Assembly (NCBI GenBank): GCA_026461395.1
Contig: JAPJNA010000044.1
Span: forward strand, 1-41,070
Origin: Chthoniobacterales bacterium
Lineage (GTDB): Bacteria; Verrucomicrobiota; Verrucomicrobiia; Chthoniobacterales; UBA6821
DNA length: 41,070 nucleotides
Reading direction: 5' to 3'
Positions within the stretch are counted from its first letter, which is position 1. Each line of letters starts with the position of its first letter. The translations under genes and the position numbers were made by a program. Positions 5,652 through 33,371 of this stretch are shown in pieces. The notes under the pieces were generated by a model that was given only the letters and a program-made list of their open reading frames with translations, was not told the origin of the DNA and searched no databases.

Positions 5652-5740
5652 CAGCTGAGTAAAAAGTGAAATGTGAAACGTGAAAAGGACTGATCGGGAA
5701 GTGCCGAGGAATGAATGTCTCGAGATGAAGCAACACCGCT

Positions 5741-15254: not shown

Positions 15255-16763
15255 CTACTCGCCCGATGACGAGGCGCCCCGTATTCCCAGTCTCTCGAGA
15301 CGCTTGCGGAGGGTCGCACGGGTGATGCCGAGAAGCTTGGAAGACTTCACCTGATTGTTATTACTCAACTCCATCGCCCTCCGAGTGAAGTCCTCCTCGA
15401 CCCAGGGAAGCAGTTCCCGGTCTCCATTCTCACGGGTCAGCGCCTCGAAGAGTGAGCGGGCTGCTTCCTCGACTGTGAGGGCTGTTGGGGCTTTTAGGGC
15501 TGTGAGGGCTGTCAGTTCGGTGGGAGCGGTTCCTTGGATTTTTGGAGAGGCAGATAGATCACTGACTTCGGCACTTTTTGTGACTTGGCCGAGGGGCAGG
15601 TCCTTCGGCAAGAGCACATCGCTTGTCGCCAGTACGGAGGCGCGCTGCAGGGTGTTCTGCAACTCACGGACATTGCCGGGCCAGGGGTAGGCCTGCATGA
15701 CCTTGATGGACTCCCCGGAGAGTTGGAGAAGCGGGCGGTGCTGCTTCTGGGCGATGCGGGAGAGGAAATACTCTGCCAGCAAGGGGATGTCCTCCGTACG
15801 AGCGCGGAGAGGAGGCAAATGGATACCGACGACATTGAGACGGTAATAGAGATCCTCGCGGAATTCCTTCTTGGCGATAGCTTCCTCCAGATTCCTGTTT
15901 GTCGCGGCGACGATCCGGACATTGGACTTGAGAGTGGCATTGCCTCCGACCCGCGAAAACTCCCCCTCCTGGAGGACGCGAAGGAGTTTGCTCTGCACAG
16001 CCAGGGGCATCTCGCCGATCTCGTCCAGGAAGAGAGTGCCGCCGTTGCCCTGCTCGAAGCGCCCGACACGCTGGGTAGCGGCGCCGGTGAAGGAACCCTT
16101 CTCATGGCCGAAGAGCTCGCTTTCCAGCAGGTTCTCAGGAATGGCGGCGCAGTTAATCGCGATGAGGGGCTTCTTGTTTCTCTCGCTGTAATTATGAATG
16201 GCGCATGCGACGAGTTCCTTGCCACAACCGCTCTCGCCCGTGACCAGGACGGGAGCATCACTCATGGCCACGCGACCCACCATTTTAAAGACGGACTGCA
16301 TCGCCTCAGACTGGCCGACAATATCGTCGTGGTACTGCTCAACGGTGAGCGCGGGTTTGACAGGTGCAGCCGAGCGAAGCTCCGCGGCAGCCTTCAGGGC
16401 CGTGTCGACCACGACCTTCATGGTGAAGGGGAGAGACTCCTTGCGCAGGAAGTCAAAGGCCCCGAGCTTCATCGACTCGATCACCGCCTGGGTCGTACCG
16501 AAGGCACTCATGATGATCACCATGGCATTCGGGGATTCGGCCCGGATCTTGGCAAGCAGGTCCAGCCCTCCAGCTGGCCTCAGGTGCATCTCCGCGATCA
16601 CCAGATCGGGCTTCTCGAGACAGAAGATCTTGAAGGCGTTTGCGGAATTCGTCTCCGTGATCACGCGGACTCCCGAGGCCTTCAGTTGCTGGCGCGCCCA
16701 GTCGAGGAAGTCCGTCTCGCTATCGACGACCAGCACTGTTTGATCGATCGGTGTACTACTCAT
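15255..16763 (-). CDS. NtrC-type sigma-54 regulator with non-canonical receiver domain
   Basis: Three-part regulator. A receiver-like domain (about 8-125) leads into a sigma-54-activating AAA+ domain (about 147-380) with Walker A GESGCGKE (176-183), the sigma-54 contact loop GSFTGA (223-228) and Walker B TLFLDE (243-248). A C-terminal Fis-type helix-turn-helix includes NNNQVKSSKLLGITRATLRKR. Aligned with NtrC, the phosphoacceptor Asp is Glu58 (LVIAEMHL) and the acidic pair is D14-S15; Ser86 and Lys108 keep the other switch positions. The linker before the HTH domain is Ala/Thr/Leu-rich and repetitive. No histidine kinase gene is adjacent. It sits 5 bases after uppS in the purA-pdxA run. Normal Asp phosphorylation is unlikely; the Glu may mimic the active state or the input may be different. 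Confidence 0.9.
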   Translation of the reverse strand: MSSTPIDQTVLVVDSETDFLDWARQQLKASGVRVITETNSANAFKIFCLEKPDLVIAEMHLRPAGGLDLLAKIRAESPNAMVIIMSAFGTTQAVIESMKLGAFDFLRKESLPFTMKVVVDTALKAAAELRSAAPVKPALTVEQYHDDIVGQSEAMQSVFKMVGRVAMSDAPVLVTGESGCGKELVACAIHNYSERNKKPLIAINCAAIPENLLESELFGHEKGSFTGAATQRVGRFEQGNGGTLFLDEIGEMPLAVQSKLLRVLQEGEFSRVGGNATLKSNVRIVAATNRNLEEAIAKKEFREDLYYRLNVVGIHLPPLRARTEDIPLLAEYFLSRIAQKQHRPLLQLSGESIKVMQAYPWPGNVRELQNTLQRASVLATSDVLLPKDLPLGQVTKSAEVSDLSASPKIQGTAPTELTALTALKAPTALTVEEAARSLFEALTRENGDRELLPWVEEDFTRRAMELSNNNQVKSSKLLGITRATLRKRLERLGIRGASSSGE

Positions 16764-21646: not shown

Positions 21647-21684
21647 TTGGCCACAAAAAGCACAAGAGGCACAAGAGGCACACG
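21647..21684 (-). repeat. dispersed repeat B
   Basis: Reads ttggccacaaaaagcacaag followed by aggcacaagaggcacacg, a short tandem of GCACAAGAG units, inverse to the copy at 3769-3801. Confidence 0.65.
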
Positions 21685-32229: not shown

Positions 32230-32250
32230 GAGGTGACCGTGACGGAATGA

Positions 32251-32832
32251 TTAATACGAGGCAGGGGCTGCAGGAGCAGCCGCGTCTGTTCCGAAAGTAG
32301 AAACAGGTGCCGGTGCCGTGTGATCGACGGAAGACGTGGAGACCACCTCGGGAACGATCCCCATAGGGATGATCCCATCGGCGACATAGAGTCCTTCGCC
32401 TGTCTTGTTCACTCCGGCAAGCTTGCCGATGCGGACATAGAGGGTCTGCTTGGGGTTCTTGGCGGTCCAGATGTAGTTATCCTGCTCAAGACCGATAAGG
32501 ATCTCCGTCACCTTCATGGGACGGTTGTAGCGATGAAGGACCCTTACCACGGCAGGAGCCAGAGGACCCGAGGGGGAAGTAGGACGAGGGCGGCCGGCTA
32601 GCTTCGAAGTGCTGGGCGTGCCATCGGCGGAGAGCTTGCGGCCGGAGCCCGGTGGACGACCACGGCGGCGGGGGGTCTGAGCTGCCTCCAGAAGCTGGTT
32701 CTTCATGATCACGGTGGCAGGAGGGAGTTCCAGGGTGTCGCCGAGGAGTTCGTGGAGCTTCTGCTGAAGACGCTCGATTTTCGATGCGATCTTCATCGCT
32801 TTCTTCAATGTGACGGAGTCAGGGATGGACAT
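32251..32832 (-). CDS. AT-hook and HARE-HTH-like DNA-binding protein
   Basis: A 193-residue protein of three parts. The N-terminal basic helix (about 8-35, KKAMKIASKIERLQQKL) may form a coiled coil. Next comes a Pro/Arg-rich stretch with an AT-hook core (PRRRGRPPGSGRK, about 53-65) and a second weaker AGRPRP. A winged-helix-like domain (about 90-150: LAPAVVRVLHRYNRPMKVTE, then TLYVRIGKLAG and GEGLYVAD) resembles the HARE-HTH fold. The tail is Ala/Pro/Thr-rich and probably disordered. Minor-groove binding through the AT-hook is likely; the target is unknown. Its leader carries the structured segment at 32880-32990. Confidence 0.65.
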   Translation of the reverse strand: MSIPDSVTLKKAMKIASKIERLQQKLHELLGDTLELPPATVIMKNQLLEAAQTPRRRGRPPGSGRKLSADGTPSTSKLAGRPRPTSPSGPLAPAVVRVLHRYNRPMKVTEILIGLEQDNYIWTAKNPKQTLYVRIGKLAGVNKTGEGLYVADGIIPMGIVPEVVSTSSVDHTAPAPVSTFGTDAAAPAAPASY

Positions 32833-33027
32833 ATCGGTGTAGGGTATCGGGTTTAGGTAATCGGTGATGGGTCTTTAGGGAACCAAGCCCGTGGGAACGG
32901 GCGCGGTAGACTGAGAGCGAAGTGAACAGCCCCGTCAGGGGTGGCACCGCTTGCCGGGAGGCAAGTGCCATCAATCAGGGATGGACATGGTGGGTATTAG
33001 GTTATTGGAATTAGGGTATGGGTAATC
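32833..33027. other. spacer between infA and the AT-hook gene, with predicted RNA hairpins
   Basis: On the minus strand, upstream of the AT-hook gene, three GC-rich hairpins follow one another. One is TGGCAC..TTGCC-TCCC-GGCAA..GTGCCA with a 3-nt bulge (about 32945-32971), then CCCC-TGAC-GGGG (about 32930-32941), then GCCCGT-TCCC-ACGGGC (about 32887-32902). The 14 bases tcagggatggacat at 32819-32832 (the gene's own start) recur at 32975-32988. The remaining bases are GGGTATTAGG-like low-complexity sequence. No T-run follows the hairpins, so this is not a simple terminator. Confidence 0.5.
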
Positions 33028-33246
33028 TTACGCGGTACGGAAAGTGATGCGGGCCTTGGTCAGGTCATAAGGGGACATTTCAACAGTCACCTTGTCACCG
33101 GGGACAATTCGGATGAAATGCTTACGCATTTTCCCAGAAATATGAGCCAATAATACGTGGCCGTTTCCGAGCTTCACACGAAACATGGTGCCGGGTAGAA
33201 CCTCGACGACAACGCCTTCGGTAGTGATTGCTTCTTCTTTAGCCAT
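33028..33246 (-). CDS. infA: translation initiation factor IF-1
   Basis: A 72-residue S1-like OB-fold protein that binds the ribosomal A site and assists IF-2 and IF-3. The sequence [40 protein letters not shown] and [20 protein letters not shown] is unmistakable. It is read from the minus strand, divergent from the exonuclease-like gene, and separated by about 195 bases from the AT-hook gene. Confidence 0.97.
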
Positions 33247-33371
33247 AAAGGAGAAGTTTAATATCTAAAACATCGCTATCTGAAAAGAGAAATATATCAC
33301 TTTTAACAAAAGAGAATAGGTATCACCTCTCTCCAAATCTTTTTACTTTGTAACCTTTTAACTTTTTAGTC

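Follow-up and report, generated by a model that had tools for sequence, protein, structure and literature searches.

Why does a block of hairpins stand between infA and an AT-hook gene in a bacterium that has never been cultured? In the window (the whole stretch of DNA analysed, 41,070 nucleotides of contig JAPJNA010000044.1 from a Chthoniobacterales genome), a sequence-only reading had noticed three hairpins lying between two copies of a 14-base sequence, one of them the start of the AT-hook gene, and had proposed either an inserted element with target duplication or a structured RNA controlling the gene. Comparison among genomes gives a direct answer to the first part of the question: the block is one copy of an approximately 90-letter element scattered in genomes of uncultured lake bacteria. 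What the element is, where exactly it begins and ends, how it may move, and what it does to the neighbouring gene are considered in turn below.

The locus, the four hairpins and the family

The AT-hook ORF is found in all 16 genomes of the source genus (protein identity to the source genome 94% in G004 and 90% in G010). It has no match in Pfam or NCBIfam, and a protein search returned eight relatives, from Spartobacteria or Verrucomicrobia metagenome-assembled genomes (MAGs). The interval between the ORF and infA (32833-33027) folds better than shuffled sequences on both strands (z = -2.45 on the + strand, -2.23 on the - strand), and an Rfam scan of 32240-33300 gave nothing above chance (top score 15.3 bits, vs a gathering score of 50).

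Features of the window locus and of the loci compared with it (window positions unless a locus or genome is named)
Feature	Position	Strand	Evidence or remark
AT-hook ORF	32251-32832	-	193 aa; downstream of infA; ORF list
14-mer copy 1	32819-32832	+	AT-hook ORF start
Degenerate short-period leader, native leader of the gene	32833-32879	+	TRF 32832-32866; matches the element-free G004 leader
Target trinucleotide on the left, GAA (some copies CAA)	32880-32882	+	Copy starts; column frequencies, 90 copies
Mobile hairpin element, unit CCAAGC...TCAA, 92 nt here	32883-32974	+	R1 match 32880-32974, 95.2 bits; abutting tandem copies; two clean empty sites
Hairpin H1, GGGA loop	32887-32902	+	Outer CC/GG pairs 32883-32884 with 32905-32906
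Hairpin H2	32911-32929	+	Variable in length and sequence; weak in the window copy, outer pairs alone kept
Hairpin H3, CCCC GTCA GGGG	32930-32941	+	95.5% of cells paired
Hairpin H4, TGGCA-CCG-CTTGCC GGGA GGCAAG-TGCCA	32942-32970	+	3-nt bulge; two helices
Right terminal TCAA	32971-32974	+	Copy ends
14-mer copy 2	32975-32988	+	Starts right after the element end (32974/32975); - strand reads ATGTCCATCCCTGA
Further leader-like stretch, to the element's right	32989-33027	+	Flank-to-flank alignment
infA, translation initiation factor IF-1	33028-33246	-	PF01176, E 4e-27
Locus 8 copies, other side of infA	G010:C67:9929-10016 (L064); G001:C5:12383-12470 (L162)		
RAYT-like transposase genes, G007	L045:1242-2180; L046:1295-2353		Apparent terminal inverted repeats with GGGGTC

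The secondary structure was assessed on an alignment of 22 copies built without reference to structure, in which the copies run from GAACCAAGC to TCAA with four hairpins in between. The hairpins of the sequence-only reading are thus real, but their number, once copies are compared, is four instead of three. Both sides have changed at 18 of the 26 pairs, with 95.4% of cells paired, a result reached by 0 of 500 shuffles, while structures slid along the alignment were paired in at most 48.5% of cells. By hairpin, such two-sided changes concern seven of eight pairs in H1, four of four in H2 and seven of 11 in H4 (whose two helices are paired in 97.3 and 98.5% of cells); H3 has none among the 22 copies, and two of its three pairs show them in a larger set of 104 distinct copies. 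This larger set consists of the distinct alignment rows among 132 matches from a model search of 75 loci; it shows such changes at 23 of the 26 pairs (413 cells), in an alignment fitted to the model. Distant relatives were aligned by the covariance model, MAFFT having misplaced their H4.

The family measures approximately 85-95 nt and carries the four hairpins. Forms of about 126 nt also occur in G007 (L175, L176, L177), and their H2 region contains a longer hairpin module with GCGAAGCAACGGC; a like module is present in the flanks of other copies (L073, L049), so that the element family is modular. Four other places (L082, L122, L109:3105-3192 and L097) have similar flanks (e.g., GCCGTAGCAGTTCTACGCCGAGTGAGCGGCAACGACGC), which suggests a second dispersed repeat beside the element.

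BLAST located eight places in the source genome, the window included, and a DNA search of 58 genomes (with the source genome) found matches in 14, all from the source genus. At E 0.01 or better, a covariance model, R1, gave at least 454 matches, spread over 15 of the 16 genomes of the genus: 25 in the source genome, at least 140 in G007, 53 in G004 and 51 in G010; in the window itself, no element match was detected besides 32880-32974. Over the order, 36 of 213 genomes match R1 at 1e-4, strongly only in the source genus. In another family, the two best genomes (G125 and G127) keep GAACCAAGC, GCGCGGTAGA and TCAA, and further relatives in that family vary more, one match having no TCAA end. A second model, R2, built in part from these relatives, matched 22 of 384 genomes of the class at 1e-5, including two from a family outside the order, and also matched in the sister genus g2 (both as model matches alone). 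The genomes compared are MAGs and incomplete; in the source genome, contig C17 starts and C34 stops inside a copy, and C11 stops 2 nt past one, so that copy numbers in MAGs are probably lower bounds. Covariation and further genomic copies, the two checks that had been suggested along with the sequence-only reading, were hence both found.

Borders, empty sites and flanking repeats

Among the 104 distinct copies, starts are mostly GAACC (72) or CAACC (7), and ends GTCAA (66), ATCAA (24) or TTCAA (3). The borders follow from copies that abut, as on contig C36 of the source genome and C27 of G007, where ATCAA or GTCAA is directly followed by CCAAGC and the TCAA of one copy occupies the place of the left (G/C)AA of the next. 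The repeating unit is therefore CCAAGC...TCAA, and the preceding (G/C)AA is part of the target or of the previous copy.

At the window locus, the element is carried by two of the 16 genomes (the source genome and G010) and is missing from the other 14, and each of eleven other loci compared has both carriers and non-carriers. Carrier status does not follow similarity, G004 being nearer to the source genome by AT-hook protein than G010 and yet without the element here, so that loss, replacement or repeated gain must have occurred. Two loci are clean enough to read the empty site. At locus B (C24:48104 in the source genome, compared with G004), the insertion follows GAA and nothing is duplicated: the source genome reads ...GCCAAGTGAA/CC..TTCAA/GCTGTA (slashes mark borders) and G004 ...GCCAAGCGAAGCTGTA, at a site without an array. 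The same holds for locus 2 (G004 C15:5446, compared with the source genome and G010), where G004 reads ...GGCTGAA/CC..TCAA/TGTTGAA and the other two ...GGCTGAAAGTTGAA; this empty site already holds the units ACCTGAA GGCTGAA AGTTGAA, and the carrier differs further downstream too.

The lack of duplication is a result from these two clean loci out of 12, the other ten having diverged flanks or extra units. The carrier has one extra 8-nt unit at locus 9 and approximately 12 nt of extra array at locus 10, and about 60 nt are extra beside the element at the window locus. Locus 8 lies upstream of infA; an insertion at the same junction is common to G010 and G001 there, and the non-carriers (the source genome, G004 and G002) show a degenerate version of the array. 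Two genomes at locus D have GAAGAGTT-type arrays and no element, and G006 has a separate copy there in the opposite orientation; at locus A, G006 is the non-carrier, and the number of array units varies among carriers. The flanks of loci 1, C, E and 11 are too diverged to call a junction. These alignments of carriers with non-carriers show that the element has been mobile over evolutionary time, with the precise ends GAA/CC...TCAA/. The inserted element of the sequence-only reading is supported by its copies elsewhere in the genome, its polymorphic presence and its precise junctions.

What, then, is the 14-base repeat? Exact copies of TCAGGGATGGACAT do bracket the hairpin block, and the one at the gene is the reverse complement of the AT-hook ORF start, both as had been noticed from the sequence. 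They are spaced by 156 nucleotides, and an exact 14-mer pair would be expected by chance in some 170 bases with a probability below 1e-4 (a rough estimate). On the - strand, copy 2 runs into the TTGA of the element and forms a five-codon frame, MSIPD followed by a stop (32971-32988), and it does likewise in G010. Outside the 14-mer, the left and right flanks are weakly similar (p = 0.025 by shuffling), and the doubled gene start and leader also lie beside the element in G010. The two 14-mers are identical within each of these genomes and one base apart between them. On the simplest view of these alignments, leader and gene start would have been duplicated locally, next to the insertion, and the 14-mer copies have possibly been kept alike by copying between them. 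The repeat is not a standard target duplication: of that proposal, there remains that a longer segment, gene start and degenerate leader, is doubled here, whereas the two clean empty sites elsewhere show no duplication at all.

The flanks of the family carry another repetition. The element lies immediately 3' of (G/C)AA, often where two units of a short tandem array meet, the units being mostly 7 nt long. This was quantified on 94 places, overlapping loci being counted once and copies from G005, as well as 13 matches that were weaker or cut (54.4 bits at most), being left out; four places with short flanks were dropped, leaving 90 copies, which are interrelated and include the same site in sister genomes counted twice, so that the counts are not independent. 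The lag-7 identity reaches 0.428 in left flanks, vs 0.257 for random stretches and 0.278 once flanks are shuffled, and 0.314 in right flanks. Across the junction, the first bases of the right flank and the last seven of the left flank are identical at 0.483, so that an array from which the unit is removed tends to stay in register. A strict array threshold is passed by 24 of the 90 left flanks and six of the 90 right flanks, and junction repeats of 6 nt or longer occur in 31 copies (vs about eight when partners are shuffled) and are missing in 59; array residence is thus a tendency. Such junction repeats hinted at a constant 7-bp target duplication, a candidate ruled out by the two clean empty sites; since nothing is duplicated at these, the junction repeats are read as array register. 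Further short-period arrays are present in the window at 5658-5687, 15473-15512 and 21652-21682 (AGTGAAA, CTGTTAGGG and CACAAGAGG).

Possible routes of mobility

How could such an element move? We consider it reasonably probable, from its ends, fold and insertion sites, that 32883-32974 is a copy of a non-autonomous mobile DNA family moving as a folded single strand by means of a Y1 transposase acting in trans. The element would fold and move as a single DNA strand, and a HUH (Y1) transposase supplied in trans would cleave it 3' of (G/C)AA at the left end and 3' of TCAA at the right end, as in IS200/IS605 elements, the 7-nt arrays serving as landing sites. The end sequences of IS608 are TTAC and TCAA, and guide sequences pair with its cleavage sites. 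The landing between infA and the AT-hook gene would have taken place in an ancestor of the source genome and G010, adjoining the doubled copy of gene start and leader, and any effect on the AT-hook gene, through extra hairpins or the five-codon decoy frame, would be a side effect.

Candidate enzymes are scarce in the genus. A profile search for the Y1 transposase (PF01797) found none in the source genome or in 13 further genomes of the genus (14 of 16), so that IS200/IS605-like movement is something we infer. The domain is present in G007 (two genes, whose proteins match a REP-associated transposase model) and in G004 (one gene, whose protein matches an IS200 transposase model), all below curated cut-offs. 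An element search in 2.6-3.3 kb around each of these genes (L042-L047) gave no match; the nearest element matches on contig C33 of G007 lie approximately 3.6 kb from the PF01797 gene, and in L046 the left end of the gene is just downstream of a truncated element start. Both G007 genes seem to possess terminal inverted repeats of their own, which speaks against their acting on the element. As only these two genomes have a Y1 transposase, and no element match surrounds its genes, it was set aside as the obvious mover. G007 and G004 rank first and second in element number, a post hoc observation; G010 has its 51 copies without a PF01797 gene. Some enzyme of an unrecognised kind, or host replication, may instead mobilise the element.

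Could the element spread, and the arrays grow, without any dedicated enzyme, replication slipping or switching template at hairpins and short repeats? No transposase is common to all carriers, the number of array units varies at orthologous sites, and the 14-mers agree within a genome while a single position distinguishes those of different genomes, as mutual copying would give. The constant ends in unrelated sequence contexts speak against this route, as does the clean insertion at locus B, a site without an array, and we regard it as unlikely.

Spread through an RNA intermediate, similarly improbable in our judgement, is the route that has been proposed for the small dispersed repeats (SDR) of cyanobacteria. 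According to work by Elhai and colleagues in 2008, SDR are reportedly tiny (21-27 nt), hairpin-forming and mobile, with compensatory changes, and often lie in tandem heptamer arrays. The heptamer setting would be common to both, although SDR are far shorter (21-27 vs 85-95 nt) and belong to another phylum. The array position, the compensatory changes and the presence of G...A loops on one strand are compatible with an RNA step; on the other hand, a reverse transcriptase domain (PF00078) was found in only one of the 16 genomes of the genus, no A-tail was seen by eye in the copy flanks listed, and G-U pairs are rare. Pair cells in the 104 distinct copies are 2466 Watson-Crick, 48 G-U, 30 A-C and 80 others. 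G-U accounts for 1.9% of canonical pairs, vs 9.3% in tRNAs (28 of 300 pairs; Fisher p ~8e-10, only a guide since copies are related), and its excess over A-C is not significant (p 0.054, with the same reservation). The tRNA control comprises 14 genes, most of them from one locus of another genus (L146), and only ARAGORN-marked pairs were counted, so that its A-C count of 0 means nothing. That locus (G037:C67) is a dense tRNA gene array with at least 11 entries, beside a distant relative of the element.

The second proposal of the sequence-only reading, a structured RNA controlling the gene, would make the block a cis-acting leader RNA for the AT-hook gene, such as an attenuator or riboswitch. 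The hairpins do fall within the presumed transcript ahead of the gene, folding exceeds that of shuffled sequences on both strands, covariation is strong, and the five-codon repeat of the gene start could serve as a decoy. Nevertheless, 14 of the 16 genomes have the gene and no element at the locus, no Rfam family is matched, G-U pairs are few, and copies lie beside unrelated genes. Of the 94 places, 20 within 500 nt of a sequence end were skipped, and of the remaining 74, 22 inside ORFs (from a crude caller, many of about 100 codons and probably spurious) and two at an ORF edge were set apart; the other 50 are close to even in orientation: 11 on the same strand as the flanking genes, 12 opposite, 11 between convergent and 16 between divergent genes. 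The loops GGGA, GAA and GNNA mark the + strand as the folded one, which is antisense to the AT-hook gene; G...A-type loops are also stable in DNA. By direct reading, the window copy has no T-run after H4 and hence is no intrinsic terminator. The few G-U pairs, the even gene orientation and the missing T-run favour a DNA hairpin element, and a gene-specific RNA leader, which distribution, orientation and pairing speak against, is very improbable. Least credible of all is a classical MITE of a DDE transposase: the element is short, non-coding and dispersed, but CCAAGC... and ...TCAA, its two ends, do not form inverted repeats on direct reading, and neither of the two clean sites has a target duplication.

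Relation to described repeats, and significance

Known bacterial repeats offer several points of comparison with the element. REP, BIME and REPIN sequences, associated with RAYT transposases, are short, palindromic, mostly non-coding and high in copy number, are thought to be non-autonomous mobile DNA, and occur as single copies and tandem clusters (PMC3733652, PMC3116915, PMC8266576); the element is likewise short, palindromic and non-autonomous, with single and tandem copies. The verrucomicrobium O. terrae is highly enriched in GTAG repeats (PMC3733652), and GTAG and CGTC repeats are the nearest class described. There are also differences. GTAG repeats have an unpaired terminal GTAG tag, a single palindrome of 20-40 bp, and a RAYT gene flanked by repeats, whereas the element has no such tag, comprises four hairpins over 85-95 nt, and lives in genomes of which only two of 16 have PF01797, with no element match around the genes. 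An internal tetranucleotide before H2 is GAAG in 38 and GTAG in 36 of the 104 distinct copies. CGTC repeats have an unpaired terminal CGTC tag; in the element, H4 pairs the base that precedes TCAA (GTCAA in 66 and ATCAA in 24 of 104). The fixed TCAA end and the 7-nt array setting also set the element apart from REP repeats.

The likeness to IS200/IS605 (PMC8266576) consists of conserved hairpins near both ends (H1 and H4 covary), a position 3' of a short fixed motif without target duplication at either of the two clean sites, and a fixed short right terminus. The element differs in that no cognate full-length IS was found, in its target trinucleotide (G/C)AA and in its four hairpins, and IS200/IS605 need a Y1 transposase, for which 14 of 16 genomes of the genus have no PF01797 match. 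Heptameric repeats of Xanthomonas and Nostoc are 7-nt tandem intergenic units whose number varies between relatives (PMC4692102); as far as the accessible part goes, these are GGGNATC-type G4 arrays without a hairpin element, whereas here many different heptamers flank one. In the open literature on palindromic or miniature repeats in Spartobacteria, Chthoniobacter and Verrucomicrobia, partially accessible and including few subscription journals, the element is undescribed among the matches listed.

A more speculative, and in our view doubtful, possibility is that the element and the 7-nt arrays form one co-evolving system, with insertion at xxxxGAA unit borders, register kept, and repeated insertion and loss helping to build heptamer arrays. 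If true, such mobile DNA would not depend on every host having a dedicated transposase gene, and it might represent convergence on the heptamer association that is reported of the cyanobacterial SDR.

Whichever route is followed, the element bears on two questions, the spread of tiny palindromic repeats and the origin of bacterial heptamer arrays. Its ends, its target and two empty sites can be read from sequence alone in uncultured Verrucomicrobiota, so that the cutting rule GAA/CC ... TCAA/ is open to a direct oligonucleotide test. It has a practical side as well, as assemblies of genomes bearing the element break at it. Finally, it stands as a warning that well-supported, covarying leader hairpins can be mobile DNA, and not riboregulators.
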